Assembly (NCBI GenBank): GCA_024413635.1
Contig: JAKSTT010000002.1
Coordinates: forward strand, 1 to 64,000
Reading direction: 5' to 3'
Length of the DNA: 64,000 nt
Source: Treponemataceae bacterium
GTDB lineage: Bacteria > Spirochaetota > Spirochaetia > Treponematales > Treponemataceae
A program made the translations under genes and the position numbers. This document shows, piece by piece, positions 4,128 to 28,833 of the stretch. The notes under the pieces are model-generated. The model ran no database searches, was not told the DNA's origin, and saw nothing but the letters and a program-made list of their open reading frames with translations. Each line of letters opens with the position of its first letter. The first letter of the stretch is position 1.

Positions 4128-6059
4128 ATGAAAAAAACTTTAGAAAACGTTCTGAAAAAATATTTCGGATATAAGACATTCCGTCCCGGGCAGCTGGAAA
4201 TCATCAGTGCCGTCCTCTCTGGTAAAGATACCCTGGCGGTTCTGCCCACCGGTGGCGGTAAATCCCTCTGTTATCAGGTGCCGGCTCTGGTATTCAAAGG
4301 ACTGACGGTTGTTGTATCTCCGCTGATTGCGTTGATGCAGGATCAGGTGGCCCAGCTGGATGCCCTGGGAATACCGTCACTGTTCCTCAACAGCAGTCTT
4401 GAATGGGAAGAATACACAGCCAACATGGACCGGATCCGGAAAGGTGAAATCAAGCTGCTGTACTGCGCACCGGAAACCCTGGTTACGGAGCGGGTCCAGA
4501 GCCTCCTGCAGCAGGTGGAAGTAAGCTGTTTTACCATTGATGAAGCACACTGTATCAGCGAATGGGGACATGATTTCCGGCCTGAATACTGCCAGCTGTA
4601 CGACATTCGGGTACGGTATCCTGCGGCAGTCTGTCTGGCACTGACGGCAACGGCAACGGAGCGGGTCCGTCATGATATAAAAACCACATTGGGCATGGGT
4701 AGGGGCCGTGAATACTTTGAATATGTTGCAAGCTTCAACCGTCCCAATATCTTTATTGATGTGCAGCCCAAGTCCGGAAGCGGGTCAGGGCGGAAACTCG
4801 GTAAGGCAAAACTGAACCGGGCCGATGAACTGGTACTGGATTTTATTGATGACCACAAGGGCGAAAGCGGCATTGTCTACTGTCTTTCGCGGCGGCAGGT
4901 AGATGAAACCACCACACTGCTGAATGCTGCCGGAGTAAAGGCATTGCCCTATCACGCAGGTCTGGCTGACGATGTGCGCGCCAGAAACCAGACGGCTTTT
5001 GTTCATGATGATGTGGCCGTTATTGTGGCAACGGTGGCCTTCGGTATGGGCATCAACAAGCCAAACGTACGGTGGATTATCCACTATGACCTGCCCAAGT
5101 CTGTTGAACAGTACTATCAGGAAATCGGCCGTGCCGGGCGTGATGGCGAGCCGGCCCATGCCCTGCTGCTGTTCAGTGCCGGAGACGCCGGAAAAATCAG
5201 GTTTTTCTTCCGGGATAAGGACAGCGATGAACAGGCCATTGCAGAAAAACAGCTGCAGTCCATGCTGAATCTGGCGCAGACCCGCCAGTGCCGGCGCAGT
5301 ATCCTTCTGGGCCATTTTGGTGAAGTATATCCGTCATCTGACGGCAAGGGTACCGTAGAAGCCGACTGCTGCTGCGACATCTGTCTGCAGGGCGGCGGAG
5401 CCAATGCCGTTGCCGTGGATGTAACCATTCCGGCCCAGAAAGTCATGTCTGCAGTGGTCCGTACCGGCGAACGGTATGGGGCAGCCTATGTGGTAGACGT
5501 ATTGTTGGGCAGCCGGATGAAACGCATTATCGATAACGGACACCATAAGCTTTCGGTGTATGGCATTGGCACTGAGTATGCAAAGGAAGACTGGATGGAA
5601 ATTGTCCGCCTTCTGATTGAGGCCGGATTCCTCAGGAAAAGTGAAGATTACCAGGTGCTGAGTATTACCCGTGATGGCATGGATACGCTGAAAGAGCGGG
5701 GCCTTGTCATGCTGCCCTTTGTACCTTCCGGCCGGACCGGTGTCGGGTATGCCAGTGAGCAGGAAAAACGGCTGAAGAAGGGCAGTGGAAAAAGCCTGTT
5801 TGCCGGAGCTGAACGTCTTTCTGCCGATGACACGGTGGGGCAGCAGATTGCGGTGGAACTGAAAAAGGTGCGGAAACGGCTGGCGGAAGACGCGGGAGTG
5901 CCGCCCTATGTCATTTTTGGTGATAAGACGGTGGAAGATATAGCAGTAAAAAAGCCCCGCCAGATGACGGAGCTTTCAGGTATTTACGGTATTGGAGATG
6001 TAAAGGCAGAAAAATTCGGCAGTTACATCCTCCGTGTTGTCAACGACCACGTGTCTTAG
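4128..6059 (+). CDS. recQ: ATP-dependent DNA helicase RecQ
   Basis: 643 residues. RecQ unwinds DNA 3'-to-5' in recombination and fork repair. Helicase motifs are clear: Walker A TGGGKS at 41–46, DEAH at 138–141 followed by CISEWGHDFRPEY (the RecQ aromatic-rich loop), and QYYQEIGRAGRDG as motif VI. The zinc-binding RQC segment is marked by RQCRR and DCCCDIC. A winged-helix part follows, and a single C-terminal HRDC-like segment (about 570–640, PRQMTELSGIYGIGDVKAEK). Length fits the bacterial family. The ATG at 4128 has only a weak ribosome-binding site; a TACAAT box at 4102–4107 would give a 5' leader of roughly 14 nt. Its stop codon overlaps the hisB stop by 4 nt, tail to tail. Confidence 0.95.
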   Translation: MKKTLENVLKKYFGYKTFRPGQLEIISAVLSGKDTLAVLPTGGGKSLCYQVPALVFKGLTVVVSPLIALMQDQVAQLDALGIPSLFLNSSLEWEEYTANMDRIRKGEIKLLYCAPETLVTERVQSLLQQVEVSCFTIDEAHCISEWGHDFRPEYCQLYDIRVRYPAAVCLALTATATERVRHDIKTTLGMGRGREYFEYVASFNRPNIFIDVQPKSGSGSGRKLGKAKLNRADELVLDFIDDHKGESGIVYCLSRRQVDETTTLLNAAGVKALPYHAGLADDVRARNQTAFVHDDVAVIVATVAFGMGINKPNVRWIIHYDLPKSVEQYYQEIGRAGRDGEPAHALLLFSAGDAGKIRFFFRDKDSDEQAIAEKQLQSMLNLAQTRQCRRSILLGHFGEVYPSSDGKGTVEADCCCDICLQGGGANAVAVDVTIPAQKVMSAVVRTGERYGAAYVVDVLLGSRMKRIIDNGHHKLSVYGIGTEYAKEDWMEIVRLLIEAGFLRKSEDYQVLSITRDGMDTLKERGLVMLPFVPSGRTGVGYASEQEKRLKKGSGKSLFAGAERLSADDTVGQQIAVELKKVRKRLAEDAGVPPYVIFGDKTVEDIAVKKPRQMTELSGIYGIGDVKAEKFGSYILRVVNDHVS

Positions 6060-6673
6060 CAGATGACACCTTTGGTAGACGGAATTGCTCCGTTCCGGCG
6101 CGGGTCAATTTCTGTTGCCTGACGGATAGCACGGGCAGCAGCCTTGAACAGGCCTTCCATTTTGTGGTGGTCGCTGCGGCCGCGGATGGTATCCAGGTGC
6201 AGGTTGCACCGGCCGGTGCTGACAAAGCCTTGCCAGAAGTCTTCAAAGCAGTCGGTCTGGAAACTGGCTTCCTTTCCGGCAGCATTGATGCTTACCAGCG
6301 GAATGCCGGTAAGGGAAGCGTTGCATACCAGATACGGGCGGCCGCCAAAGTCTACGGCTGCCTGACACAGGCTTTCATCCATGGGGTACAGGCAGCTGCC
6401 GCTCCGGTAAATACCGGCACAGTCGCCCAGTGCTTTGGCAAATGCCATGCCCAGGGCAATACCGGTGTCCTCAATCAGGTGGTGCTGGTCAACTTCCAGG
6501 TCTCCCTGAATGGATCCGGAAAGATCAAAAAGTCCGTGTTTGCAGAATGAATTCAGCATGTGGAAAAAGAACCCGATGGGGCAGTCCACATCACACTTTC
6601 CGGTACCGTCAATGTTCAGTGTCAGCGTTATCTGTGTTTCTTTTGTGTTCCGTTCAATAGTTGCCGTTCTCAT
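6056..6673 (-). CDS. hisB: imidazoleglycerol-phosphate dehydratase
   Basis: 205 residues, a monofunctional HisB that removes water from imidazole-glycerol phosphate to give imidazole-acetol phosphate. The paired metal-binding histidine motifs are present: DQHHLIEDTGIALG (62–75) and RSDHHKMEGLFKAA. The first histidine motif, normally F-x-D-H-M, reads GFFFHML with Phe37 in place of Asp, while the metal-binding His38 is kept. The start codon overlaps the hisG stop (ATGA), so the two genes are translationally coupled under the hisG leader. There is no fused phosphatase domain, as expected outside the enterobacteria. Confidence 0.93.
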   Translation of the reverse strand: MRTATIERNTKETQITLTLNIDGTGKCDVDCPIGFFFHMLNSFCKHGLFDLSGSIQGDLEVDQHHLIEDTGIALGMAFAKALGDCAGIYRSGSCLYPMDESLCQAAVDFGGRPYLVCNASLTGIPLVSINAAGKEASFQTDCFEDFWQGFVSTGRCNLHLDTIRGRSDHHKMEGLFKAAARAIRQATEIDPRRNGAIPSTKGVIC

Positions 6674-7524
6674 GCCATTACCTTGCGCAGGTCATATTCC
6701 AGAATATCAGTAGCGCCCAGTGCCTTCAGTTTTGGCAGCAGGTTCGGAACTTCAGATTTCTTAACGGCAATTTTGATTGCATAACCGTCATCACCATACA
6801 GTGGAGAAATGGTCGGGCTCTTCATTGAAGGCAGTCCTTTTACCAGGTCTTCAAAGCGGGCGCGGGTAACGTTCATTTCGAGCATGACGCGGTCACGGGC
6901 ATCGATAACGGCTTCAAAGAGCATTTTCAGTTCCATGATTTTCTTTTTCTTGTCAGGATCTTCCATGGCAGCTTTTGAGGCGAACATGCAGGTAGAACTG
7001 GTCATGATGGTATCAACGATGCGCAGTCCGTTTTCAATCAGGGTGCGGCCGGTGGCGGTGTTATCGATAATCATGTCGGCATCGTCCGGTGGGAAAACTT
7101 CGGTGGCACCGTAGGTCCGGATTACCTGGCTGTCAAATTTGTTGGAATCAAGCCATTCTTTTGCAATGTTTTCGTATTCGGTGGCAACGATCATGTGGCG
7201 GCTTTTAATGGCAGCGTCGTCAATTTCGTTTGGAACGGCGGCAACAATGCGTACCTGGTCAAAGCCCAGGTCCATGATTTCTACAACATCAGCATTGGTT
7301 TCCTTAATCCAGTCGCGGCCGGTAAATCCAACGTCATGAGCACCCAGTTCCAGCAGTTTACCGATGTTCTGCGGTTTCATTACTTTTGCTTCCAGATCGT
7401 CCTGGTTAACGGTTGGGCGGTAGGCGCGCTCCGGCAGTTTGATGGTGATGCCGGCGCCGGTGAACAGGCCTACAACGTTGTCGTAAATGCGTCCTTTTGG
7501 TAACAGAATCTTTAATTTTTCCAT
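6670..7524 (-). CDS. hisG: ATP phosphoribosyltransferase, long form
   Basis: 284 residues. It catalyses the first step of histidine synthesis, joining ATP and PRPP. The N-terminal LLPKGR and VGFTGRDWI segments and the phosphate-binding region around PDDADMIIDNTATGRTL are typical. The length and the C-terminal block (LPSMKSPTISPLYGDDG, then AIKIAVKKSEV) match the long HisG form, which carries its own ACT-like regulatory domain and is inhibited by histidine without HisZ. The ribosome-binding site AAGGAG lies just before the ATG. It is first in hisG-hisB and sits about 340 nt behind a predicted promoter, with a histidine leader peptide and a terminator in between. Confidence 0.95.
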   Translation of the reverse strand: MEKLKILLPKGRIYDNVVGLFTGAGITIKLPERAYRPTVNQDDLEAKVMKPQNIGKLLELGAHDVGFTGRDWIKETNADVVEIMDLGFDQVRIVAAVPNEIDDAAIKSRHMIVATEYENIAKEWLDSNKFDSQVIRTYGATEVFPPDDADMIIDNTATGRTLIENGLRIVDTIMTSSTCMFASKAAMEDPDKKKKIMELKMLFEAVIDARDRVMLEMNVTRARFEDLVKGLPSMKSPTISPLYGDDGYAIKIAVKKSEVPNLLPKLKALGATDILEYDLRKVMA

Positions 7525-7549
7525 AGGGTACTCCTTGTTATAAATATCA

Positions 7550-7683
7550 GCACAACTCTACCGGCAGTCTGGGGATGGCCAAAAACGCTCGATATCGTCG
7601 CTATTGGCGGAGCCTGGCAAGGAAACTATCGTTCCAGGCTCCGACAATTTTTGTCCATCCCCATCCCGCCTCCCGAGTTGTGC
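7550..7683 (+). repeat. structured non-coding element, copy 1 of a covarying repeat
   Basis: Three nested stems lie in the hisG leader. Outer: GCACAACTC/GAGTTGTGC (7550–7558 with 7675–7683). Middle: TGGGGATGG with CCATCCCCA (7570–7578, 7655–7663), continued by CAAAAA/TTTTTG after one mismatch. Inner: CGGAGCCTGG/CCAGGCTCCG (7608–7617, 7634–7643) closing the loop CAAGGAAACTATCGTT. Between middle and inner stems is the palindrome CGATATCG, followed by TCGCT. A second copy at 28696–28833, in opposite orientation, keeps the loop and this arrangement but uses other stem bases. This orientation is antisense to hisG. Confidence 0.75.
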
Positions 7684-7720
7684 AGCTTTTTTGCTACAGA
7701 CTCAGTGGGCTTCAGGGTAT

Positions 7721-7764
7721 AAAAAAAGCCGCTCTCCTTTGACTTTGGGTCAGGATGCGGCTTT
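7721..7764 (-). terminator. his operon attenuator terminator
   Basis: Read on the minus strand, AAAGCCGC pairs with GCGGCTTT, extended inward by TCC/GGA, and is followed by seven Ts (7727–7721). It lies 41 nt after the stop codon of the histidine-rich leader peptide and about 200 nt before hisG, the position expected of an attenuator. The opposite strand also ends in a T-rich run, so it may act both ways. Confidence 0.8.
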
Positions 7765-7805
7765 CTTTTTTACTGCAGATGCAGCAATCACAACGGCTCA
7801 CAATC

Positions 7806-7862
7806 CTAACGGCCTTTATGGTGAGAATGGTGGTGATGTGCGTGCAGTCTTACTGAAGTCAT
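7806..7862 (-). CDS. hisL: histidine operon leader peptide
   Basis: An 18-codon reading frame encodes MTSVRLHAHHHHSHHKGR, with seven histidines, four in a row. Its only sensible role is to sense charged tRNA-His: a ribosome stalled on the His codons would change folding of the downstream leader and block the terminator at 7721–7764. The His-codon RNA can pair with the stretch just after the stop codon (ATCAC and CTCAC with GTGAG and GTGAT), which fits a 1:2 pairing. The start codon lies only 7 nt after a -10 box, so the message should be leaderless. No ribosome-binding site is seen. The competing antiterminator was not resolved by eye. Confidence 0.85.
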   Translation of the reverse strand: MTSVRLHAHHHHSHHKGR

Positions 7863-7869
7863 ATCAAAA

Positions 7870-7898
7870 TTATTAAACTCATGTTTTGTTTTTGTCAA
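7870..7898 (-). promoter_or_regulatory. promoter of the histidine leader and hisGB
   Basis: A perfect -35 TTGACA (7898–7893), 17-nt spacer and -10 TAATAA (7875–7870) lie on the minus strand. The -10 ends 7 nt before the leader peptide ATG, so transcription should begin at or next to that codon. Confidence 0.75.
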
Positions 7899-13850: not shown

Positions 13851-15173
13851 ATGATTATATCATCTATCGACTTAAAAGACGGAAAAGTTGTACAGCTCAA
13901 AAACGGCAAGGACCTGATTATTGAGCGTGACGATCCGGATGCCCTTATCAATGAATTCAACATGTACGGCGAAGTTGCCGTTATCGACCTTGATGCCGCT
14001 TTGGGCAACATCATTACTGAAGGAAAGAACCGCGGCACTACTGCCAATACTGAACTGCTGAAAAGCCTTCTGCGGAAAGGCAATGTACGTGTTGGCGGCG
14101 GCATTAAAGACGTAAAAAAAGCCAAAGAGCTGATTTCTCTTGGTGCAGAAAAAGTAATTATCGGGTCAGCCGCCTGGGCCTCTGCCGAAGACCGTGCTGA
14201 AGGAAAACTGCTGAATACTGAGTTCCTTGATGAGCTGACTGCAGCCATCGGTAAACAGCGCATCATCATCAGCGTAGACGCCATAAACGGTAAAATTGCC
14301 GTAAAAGGCTGGACTGAAACCAACGGCATTGACCTGATTGACGGTGCCAAGGCTGCAGAAGCCTATGCCAGCGAACTGCTCTTTACCTGTGTAGAAAAAG
14401 AAGGCTGCATGCAGGGAACTGATATGGAAGCCGCAAAAAAACTGCGTGAAGCCGTAAAATGCCGTATCGTTGTTGCCGGTGGTGTTTCAACCCTGGAAGA
14501 AGCTGTTGCCCTTGAAAAAATGGGTTGTGACGTTCAGATGGGCATGGCCCTGTACACCGGTAAGGTATCCCTGAAAGATGCCTTTATTGAATGCCTGAAC
14601 TGGGAAAAGGCTGCAGAAACCACTGCGGGCCTTATTCCGGTAATTGCCCAGAGCCCTGACGGACAGGTTCTGATGATGGGCTACGCCAACAAAGAAGCAT
14701 TCAACAAGACCTTTGACGTAAAGAAACTGACGTTCTGGAGCCGTACCCGTAACGTACTCTGGACTAAAGGTGAACACAGCGGTCACCATCTGAGCGTACT
14801 GAAACTGCGTGTTGACTGCGATCGTGATACCGTTCTTGCTACGGTTATTCCCCATGGCGGCGTATGCCACACCGGCAGTTATACCTGTTTTTCTGCAGAA
14901 CCTGATGCTGCAAGTACCATGGAACGGCTGTATGCCACCATTGCTGACCGTTTTGCCAATCCGGTTCCCGGTTCGTATACCGCAACCCTCAACGACAAAC
15001 GGGTACGTGAAAAGGTAGAAGAAGAAGCTGAAGAAGTAACGGAAGCTGAAGGCAAAGATGAAGTTATCTGGGAGTGTGCAGACCTGCTCTACTTCCTGAA
15101 CGTTCTGATGTATAAAGAAGGCGTAACCTGGTCCGATGTAATGGCTGAACTGGACCGCCGCCACAAAAAATAA
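13851..15173 (+). CDS. hisIE: HisA–HisI–HisE triple-domain histidine biosynthesis protein
   Basis: 440 residues. Residues 1–250 are a HisA/HisF-type barrel: IDLKDGKVVQL with catalytic Asp7, VRVGGGI, SVDAINGKIAVKGW with Asp143, VVAGGV. Residues about 255–350 are HisI (phosphoribosyl-AMP cyclohydrolase): TFWSRTRN, GEHSGHHL, VDCDRDTV, GGVCHTGSYTC. Residues about 355–440 are HisE (phosphoribosyl-ATP pyrophosphohydrolase), with the EEEAEEVTEAE helix and ECADLLYF. Three consecutive steps of the pathway are thus in one chain. The barrel departs from HisA in two places: the Asp-Gly of the isomerase loop is Glu184-Gly, and the phosphate loop reads MGMALYTG. hisD follows 9 nt later. Confidence 0.88.
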   Translation: MIISSIDLKDGKVVQLKNGKDLIIERDDPDALINEFNMYGEVAVIDLDAALGNIITEGKNRGTTANTELLKSLLRKGNVRVGGGIKDVKKAKELISLGAEKVIIGSAAWASAEDRAEGKLLNTEFLDELTAAIGKQRIIISVDAINGKIAVKGWTETNGIDLIDGAKAAEAYASELLFTCVEKEGCMQGTDMEAAKKLREAVKCRIVVAGGVSTLEEAVALEKMGCDVQMGMALYTGKVSLKDAFIECLNWEKAAETTAGLIPVIAQSPDGQVLMMGYANKEAFNKTFDVKKLTFWSRTRNVLWTKGEHSGHHLSVLKLRVDCDRDTVLATVIPHGGVCHTGSYTCFSAEPDAASTMERLYATIADRFANPVPGSYTATLNDKRVREKVEEEAEEVTEAEGKDEVIWECADLLYFLNVLMYKEGVTWSDVMAELDRRHKK

Positions 15174-15182
15174 GGAGTTATC

Positions 15183-16526
15183 ATGAGCGACATCACCATT
15201 GTAAAGGGAAATGATGTTTCCCCGGATTTTTTTGAACCGCGTACACTTGCCAGCGATGTTCATGACATTGTTCAGGGCATTCTTGATGACGTAAAACACC
15301 GTGGTGATGAAGCGCTCCATGAAATGAGCCGGAAATTTGACCAGGCTGCTCCGGAAAATCTGGCCATCGGAAAAGAAGCTCTGAAAGCCTGCGCAGAAAA
15401 ACTGGAAAAAGAAAATCCGGACCTGTATCAGGCACTGTCCTTTACCTATTCGCTGACCTACGGGTTTGCAAAAAAACAGCGGGAATGTTTTACCGACTTT
15501 GAAACTGAACTGGTACCCGGCCTGATTACCGGCCAGAAAACCATTCCGGTTGAACGGGCAGGACTGTATGCTCCTGCCGGACGGTTCCCGCTGTTCAGTA
15601 CCCTGATTATGTGTGCTGCTCCTGCAAAAGCTGCCGGTGTTTCGGAGCTGGTTATGTGTACCCCGCCACGCAAACACCCCTCCGGCGATGACAAACTGCC
15701 ATGGGCAGATGAAAACATCCTGGCTGCAGCCTACATCTGTGGCGTAGATACTGTTTTTGCCTGCGGTGGTGCGCAGGCTGTGGCCGCCATGGCATATGGT
15801 ACTGCCAGCATTCCAAAAGTAGATGTTATTGTAGGACCGGGAAATAAGTTTGTAACGGAAGCTAAACGCATTCTGTATGGGCAGGTCGGCATTGACTTTG
15901 TTGCCGGCCCTACAGAGGCCTTCATCATTGCAGATGATACGGCAAATCCTGCCTGGGTTGCCGCAGACCTTCTGGCACAGGCTGAACACGATCCTGATGC
16001 CCAGGCTGTTATGGTAACCTGTTCAGAAAAACTGGCAGAAGCCGTAGCTGCAGAAGTTGATAAACAGCTCTCTGTCCTGCCGACAGCTGAAACTGCTCGG
16101 GAATCCATCAAGCGCAATGGACGCATCATTCTTGCAGATTCGCTGTTCCAGGCTGTTGATATTGCCAATAGAAAGGCTCCGGAACATCTGGAAATTGCCA
16201 TGGACCCGGGAACCAATATGGACTATGTCATGAGCAAGGCACACAACTACGGCACCCTGTTCATCGGTCACCACGCTGCAGAAGTTCTTGGTGATTATGC
16301 CGCCGGTTTGAACCATGTTCTGCCTACCAGTGGCAGTGCCCGCTTTACCGGCGGATTAAGTGTCCGGAATTTCATTAAAACCGTAACGACCCTGCGTACT
16401 GAACAGGATCCTCACGGTGCTTTGTATGAAGGTGTGGTTAAGTCAGCACAGACTGCCGTTATCCTTGGAGAAACAGAAGGTCTTATTGCCCACAGCCGTG
16501 CTGCAGCAATCCGTCTGCAGGGCTGA
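15183..16526 (+). CDS. hisD: histidinol dehydrogenase
   Basis: 447 residues. It oxidises L-histidinol to histidine in two NAD-dependent steps, the last of the pathway, at a zinc site. Recognisable blocks are VERAGLYAPAGRFPL, VDVIVGPGNKFV, VGIDFVAGPTEAF, AQAEHDPDAQ and the catalytic HVLPTSGSARFTGGLSV. The length is normal. AAGGAG before the ATG and the 9-nt gap place it in one operon with the HisA–HisIE fusion. Its stop is 7 nt from that of the convergent ppk1. Confidence 0.96.
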   Translation: MSDITIVKGNDVSPDFFEPRTLASDVHDIVQGILDDVKHRGDEALHEMSRKFDQAAPENLAIGKEALKACAEKLEKENPDLYQALSFTYSLTYGFAKKQRECFTDFETELVPGLITGQKTIPVERAGLYAPAGRFPLFSTLIMCAAPAKAAGVSELVMCTPPRKHPSGDDKLPWADENILAAAYICGVDTVFACGGAQAVAAMAYGTASIPKVDVIVGPGNKFVTEAKRILYGQVGIDFVAGPTEAFIIADDTANPAWVAADLLAQAEHDPDAQAVMVTCSEKLAEAVAAEVDKQLSVLPTAETARESIKRNGRIILADSLFQAVDIANRKAPEHLEIAMDPGTNMDYVMSKAHNYGTLFIGHHAAEVLGDYAAGLNHVLPTSGSARFTGGLSVRNFIKTVTTLRTEQDPHGALYEGVVKSAQTAVILGETEGLIAHSRAAAIRLQG

Positions 16527-28695: not shown

Positions 28696-28833
28696 GAAGT
28701 AAATACGGGAAGGAAGGCAGAGTCTGGCAAAAACTGTTGCAGGCCGGTACAATAGTTTCCTTGCCGGCCTGCACCTGTAGCGACGCTAGCGAGCGGTTTT
28801 GCCAGACTCTGACTGACTGGCAGTATTTACTTC
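28696..28833 (-). repeat. structured non-coding element, copy 2 of the covarying repeat
   Basis: On the minus strand this matches the 7550–7683 element in layout. Stems are GAAGTAAATAC with GTATTTACTTC (11 bp, outer), CAGAGTCTGGCAAAA with its complement (15 bp), and TGCAGGCCGG with CCGGCCTGCA (10 bp) around the 16-nt loop CAAGGAAACTATTGTA. The small palindrome is CGCTAGCG, again flanked by GCT and TCGCTA. All stems differ in sequence from copy 1 yet stay paired. The outer arm runs 7 nt into the 3' end of oppF. Confidence 0.75.

Follow-up and report, generated by a model that had tools for sequence, protein, structure and literature searches.

In Escherichia coli and Salmonella, the hisL leader (Rfam His_leader) consists of a short ORF containing consecutive His codons and located before hisG, alternative RNA pairings and an intrinsic terminator. 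In E. coli, a ribosome-binding site lies in a 5′ leader ahead of the hisL ORF. His attenuators are known from Proteobacteria, and predictions have been made for some Firmicutes (PMC9413887, PMC2965389); a His-run leader, a terminator and an antiterminator are placed there upstream of the his genes of the Bacillus cereus group, Peptostreptococcaceae and Erysipelotrichales (PMC9413887), and the same elements make up the attenuators of hisS and hisZ (PMC2965389). Leaderless leader peptides have been described for LeuL2, TrpL1 and IlvL of Streptomyces lividans (PMC8079986) and for trpL of Sinorhizobium meliloti (PMC7298713), where the ORF begins at the mapped 5′ end of the transcript and an attenuator comes after it.

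The region upstream of hisG in a Treponemataceae bacterium was analysed within a window of 64,000 nt, this being the whole stretch of DNA under study. With a probability of about 0.9, judged from sequence and modelled RNA folding, this region would act as a ribosome-mediated transcription attenuator for hisGB that is governed by a leaderless His-rich leader ORF. It has the elements of the enterobacterial leader, but with other sequences and spacing; no match to Rfam His_leader at the gathering score was detected in the window, nor in any of nine relatives, and its start codon, in contrast to that of E. coli hisL, is located at the predicted transcript start. Compared with the Firmicutes leaders, it belongs to another phylum and has other sequences, and no statement on leaderless leaders was found in the relevant passages of those reports. 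The S. lividans and S. meliloti systems involve other amino acids (Leu, Trp and Ile) and other phyla, and their 5′ ends were measured, whereas the one described here is predicted. The first-pass annotation of this DNA knew of no described example in a spirochaete, and none was found in the literature searched, whose coverage leaves most subscription journals outside. Therefore, the mechanism is classical, and the new elements are its occurrence in this phylum, the predicted leaderless form of a His attenuator and a design shared by two operons.

Promoter, leader ORF and terminator upstream of hisG

A promoter followed by a short His-rich frame, and a terminator with seven Ts between this frame and hisG, had been proposed in the first-pass annotation. 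Both were confirmed (Table 1), the promoter and frame on the minus strand, with the −10 box 6 nt before the ATG at 7862 and seven His residues in the peptide, and the terminator by folding. The promoter boxes are separated by an 18-nt spacer and show 11/12 consensus matches. The encoded peptide, MTSVRLHAHHHHSHHKGR, has His at 7 of its 18 codons, and its ORF lies before hisG. A homologous leader, MNLVHLHAHHHHSHHEAIR, was found in the closest relative (L002), and the differences between both sequences within the LHAHHHHSHH stretch are all synonymous. The terminator hairpin is GC-rich, with a ΔG of −21.2 kcal/mol; a simple terminator scan of the window made no call at this hairpin, which was recovered by folding.

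The hisA-hisIE and hisD genes, identified by Pfam, are located on the opposite strand at 13851-16526 and are not in the hisGB transcript. The palindromic repeat that lies before hisG has one further match in the window (28728-28815) and was not seen at the matching place upstream of hisG in the relatives compared; it is neither part of the attenuator nor needed by it.

Table 1. Features of the hisGB upstream region and operon, in window coordinates.
Feature	Position	Strand	Basis or remark
−35 box TTGACA	7893..7898	-	Promoter scan; TTGAC 35-40 nt 5′ of the leader start in 50/53 leaders
−10 box AATAAT	7869..7874	-	Gap to ATG compared across leaders (see text)
Leader ORF (hisL)	7806..7862	-	No Shine-Dalgarno site; homologous leader in L002
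Segment 1, control region (seven His codons)	7818..7844	-	Predicted to pair with segment 2, −20.6 kcal/mol
Segment 2, predicted antiterminator 5′ strand	7796..7810	-	Overlaps leader stop codon; ribosome-state folding
Small hairpin TTGCTGC-ATCT-GCAGTAA, nested within antiterminator	7770..7787	-	Ribosome-state folding
Segment 3, predicted antiterminator 3′ strand	7746..7762	-	Overlaps terminator 5′ arm; folding
Intrinsic terminator	7721..7768	-	Stem 7768-7757 with 7732-7721; 7-T tail 7727-7721; folding
Palindromic intergenic repeat	7542..7691	.	Between terminator and hisG; about 19 matches in genome
hisG Shine-Dalgarno AAGGAG	7531..7536	-	Sequence
hisG, ATP phosphoribosyltransferase	6670..7524	-	Pfam PF01634 (HisG) and PF08029
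hisB, imidazoleglycerol-phosphate dehydratase	6056..6673	-	Pfam PF00475 (IGPD); overlaps hisG

Conservation of the His leader

The upstream regions of 80 spirochaete hisG loci were collected and, together with that of the window (81 regions), were scanned over 450 nt upstream of hisG for an ORF 8-45 codons long in which at least four residues out of eight are His, and for a promoter with at least 9/12 matches located 5-10 nt before the ORF start. A His ORF alone was detected in 31/81 hisG regions, compared to 2/1620 shuffles and 9/2307 background tiles of the same contigs. With the promoter included, 28/81 hisG regions were positive and no control was (0/1620 shuffled regions, 0/2307 tiles); among the regions bearing a His ORF, the promoter was present in 28/31 at hisG and in 0/9 of the background tiles. 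The leader arrangement at hisG is far beyond chance, and the idea that the His codons are clustered fortuitously in non-coding DNA, which has nothing in its favour apart from the shortness of the ORF, is refuted by these counts.

An intrinsic terminator follows the leader stop codon in 52/53 collected leaders, mostly 18-38 nt downstream, and in many relatives both the His codons and the terminator are retained, with differing flanking residues and hairpin sequences. When the leaders were compared, the peptide was little conserved outside its His residues. Between close pairs, 11 single-base changes inside His codons were synonymous and 2 were not, counts that are biased by the choice of leaders partly by His content and promoter.

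As terminators are generally common before biosynthetic operons, this one could belong to another device, such as a T-box, a riboswitch or a protein-dependent terminator, the His ORF being incidental. This is very improbable, given that the His run recurs at the same place in many relatives beyond chance, and that a scan with Rfam revealed no family at gathering score near the locus, the sole matches in the window being two tRNAs. The T-box covariance model likewise gave no match at the locus.

A further search at class level, with 80 more upstream regions, showed that clear His leaders also exist in several further families, namely in 9/11 genomes of family f10, 3/3 of f19, 2/2 of f5 and 2/2 of f4, one of the latter with a weak promoter. 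One doubtful leader was found in family f2. No His leader was seen in the majority of the remaining families in the class, many of which have a shorter HisG frame. On a HisG tree of 81 rows, leader presence was clustered, yet at least 17 gains or losses were needed. The leader was present on both main branches, including Breznakiella homolactica and Brucepastera parasyntrophica, and absent in Treponema parvum, T. socranskii and T. brennaborense. The distribution is patchy, with many relatives devoid of a recognisable leader. A comparison of related genomes for conserved His codons and terminator, proposed in the first-pass annotation, was positive in many of them, whereas some close relatives have no leader. 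This distribution is most simply read as an old trait that was lost many times, a horizontal spread of the leader being a possible alternative.

Three other observations were made on these upstream regions. One hisG locus (L011) has a terminator and a leader whose promoter is similarly spaced, but this leader has only two adjacent His codons (MNIQLLYEYHHCAVSVSENDR), and is possibly a decaying or retuned attenuator. In one clade (L021, L025, L027, L032, L033, L035, L036, L039 and L040), the leader ends with Pro-Gly-stop on a conserved CCGGGTTGA-like sequence, which could extend the antiterminator, and the Pro-Gly end might slow termination. Finally, a repeat, GGGGCGTTGCGGGGTGTCCCCGCAGA, is common to the hisG upstream regions of two species (L002 and L050).

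A start codon at the predicted transcript start

RNA polymerase normally initiates about 7 nt after the −10 box, and the A of the ATG at 7862 is the seventh base after this box, which corresponds to the usual +1 distance. Because of this spacing, we infer that the actual 5′ end of the message would be the A of the AUG or a base within a few nt of it, with the transcript start predicted at 7862 or within about 3 nt. The gap from the −10 box to the start codon was 5-10 nt in 52/53 leaders and most commonly 6 or 7 nt, a distribution in part biased by the use of the promoter in choosing the leaders.

The mean energy of pairing with the anti-Shine-Dalgarno sequence was −1.0 kcal/mol for leader starts, −8.0 for hisG starts and −2.5 for random pieces; thus, leader starts bind it less well than random pieces, whereas hisG starts bind it strongly. 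The proposal of a leader without a Shine-Dalgarno site, whose start codon coincides with the predicted transcript start, is compatible with the leaders beyond the window, almost all of which share this gap and the missing Shine-Dalgarno signal. As far as sequence can tell, the leader ORF is probably leaderless.

The same attenuator could also work with a transcript that starts upstream, so that the leader ORF would have an ordinary though weak 5′ untranslated region. An upstream start is compatible with a start site that is predicted, and the gaps of 9-10 nt found in some relatives could produce a 5′ untranslated region of 2-4 nt. Nevertheless, we consider this variant unlikely, since unrelated leaders of two operons share an almost perfect −35 box as well as a fixed gap, and since the Shine-Dalgarno signal at the leader starts is absent, even below the random level.

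Alternative pairings and the state of the ribosome

The pairing of the His-codon RNA with the segment after the stop, also proposed in the first-pass annotation, was predicted in the window, and across loci own partners paired better than swapped ones, both for segments 1:2 (P=0.004) and for segments 2:3 (P=0.0007). A pairing search revealed that the segment 3′ of the His codons has either these codons or the terminator 5′ arm as alternative partners, in mutually exclusive structures. When the window RNA was folded up to the terminator loop with a ribosome on any of the His codons, the antiterminator was still possible (−19 to −26 kcal/mol), whereas it was destroyed with the ribosome at the stop codon; 15/19 terminator-arm bases were paired in the stalled state and 0 at the stop. 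Over 52 loci, the fraction of arm bases paired was 0.73 with the ribosome stalled and 0.32 at the stop, compared to 60% and 38%, respectively, with shuffled spacers. The difference in the stalled state (0.73 vs 0.60) was significant (Wilcoxon P about 1e-6). In parts of the family the switch was weaker, and the arm was almost fully cleared in the stop-codon state in only 17/52 loci.

With the conserved His-run ORF, the promoter geometry, the terminator and the exclusive pairings observed by sequence comparison and folding, the response to histidine would run as follows. Transcription would begin at the AUG of the His-rich leader ORF or within a few nt of it, and a ribosome would translate the leader as a leaderless message. 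With ample charged tRNA-His, the ribosome would reach the stop codon and cover segment 2, because this segment overlaps the stop, and the terminator would form before hisG. With scarce charged tRNA-His, the ribosome would stall on the His codons, segment 2 would pair with the terminator 5′ arm, and once this antiterminator is formed RNA polymerase would continue into hisG-hisB.

In the full-length RNA, the terminator was within the lowest-energy fold whatever the ribosome state. As the terminator is always the stabler final fold, the switch would have to be kinetic and decided during transcription, as in the classical model, and the small hairpin nested within the antiterminator may have a role in pausing. 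Taken as a whole, the 5′ region gave a far more stable fold than its shuffled versions (z −6.9), a score to which the palindromic repeat contributes.

Covariation of the antiterminator, suggested in the first-pass annotation as a check, did not emerge, since pair counting in one aligned group gave values not above shuffles. For the antiterminator half, RNAalifold run on 11 sequences yielded just 3 pairs, all uninformative, and the register of pairing shifted from one species to another. In contrast, the terminator stem covaried in eleven alignable sequences, with 96.6% of cells paired, 8 two-sided changes and 0/500 shuffles as high.

A second leader at the DAHP synthase gene and other operons

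The genome-wide statements are based on pattern searches for the same promoter-ATG spacing, which returned ten places. In the same genome, a Phe/Tyr-rich leader, MSTFCFAYFYYFSFYGFSRCSAEGVN, was found with a 6-nt gap and a terminator (G000:C220:7218-7255, minus strand; L211/L261), about 206 nt before a gene for DAHP synthase, which was identified by Pfam. Within the family, such a Phe/Tyr leader was present in 15 of 26 regions upstream of related genes, in all cases with a strong promoter, a gap of 6-8 nt and a terminator after the leader, compared to 2/780 shuffles and 2/1458 background tiles with such a leader and promoter. A leader peptide is also known at aroF (DAHP synthase) of Corynebacterium glutamicum (PMC3890552), in an unrelated phylum; it is likened here by gene type and not by sequence.

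This counterpart bears on whether the His-rich peptide could have a function of its own, such as metal binding, instead of acting as a sensor. His-rich peptides bind nickel and zinc, and leader peptides that act in trans are known, as peTrpL of S. meliloti (PMC7298713). Nonetheless, such a function appears highly implausible for a peptide so little conserved apart from its His residues, encoded before hisG together with a terminator, and whose counterpart at the DAHP synthase gene is rich in Phe and Tyr and not in His.

Together, the two leaders would extend a classical mechanism to a phylum for which no description was found, in a predicted leaderless form at two operons. We lean towards the view that leaderless leader-peptide attenuation is an old, shared control of amino-acid operons in the class Spirochaetia, in which the promoter-on-start-codon design would have been kept for His (hisG) and Phe/Tyr (DAHP synthase), and the sensing ribosome would normally enter on a 5′-terminal AUG, in a phylum where leaderless genes are otherwise rare. 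According to one survey (PMC3160421), such genes make up a mean of only 3.9% in those few genomes of spirochaetes where they occur at all. Their rarity, set against their steady presence at attenuators, suggests a functional reason: without a 5′ leader, ribosome loading would be tied directly to the first nucleotides made. As two named strains with complete genomes, Brucepastera parasyntrophica RmG11 (L039) and Breznakiella homolactica RmG30 (L049), carry the His leader, the attenuator is testable.

In the regions upstream of trpE, an ilvB-type gene and two HMGL-like (leuA-type) genes of the same genome, a search for a leaderless leader behind a strong promoter was negative. A Tyr-rich frame before a trkH-like gene (L255/L260) was judged to be a chance occurrence, given its poor −10 box and the unrelated gene. 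Upstream of trpE (L212; G000:C150), the palindrome GTTACT...AGTAAC is repeated and overlaps a promoter-like sequence, and its copies look like repressor operators; therefore, the trp genes are seemingly controlled differently.
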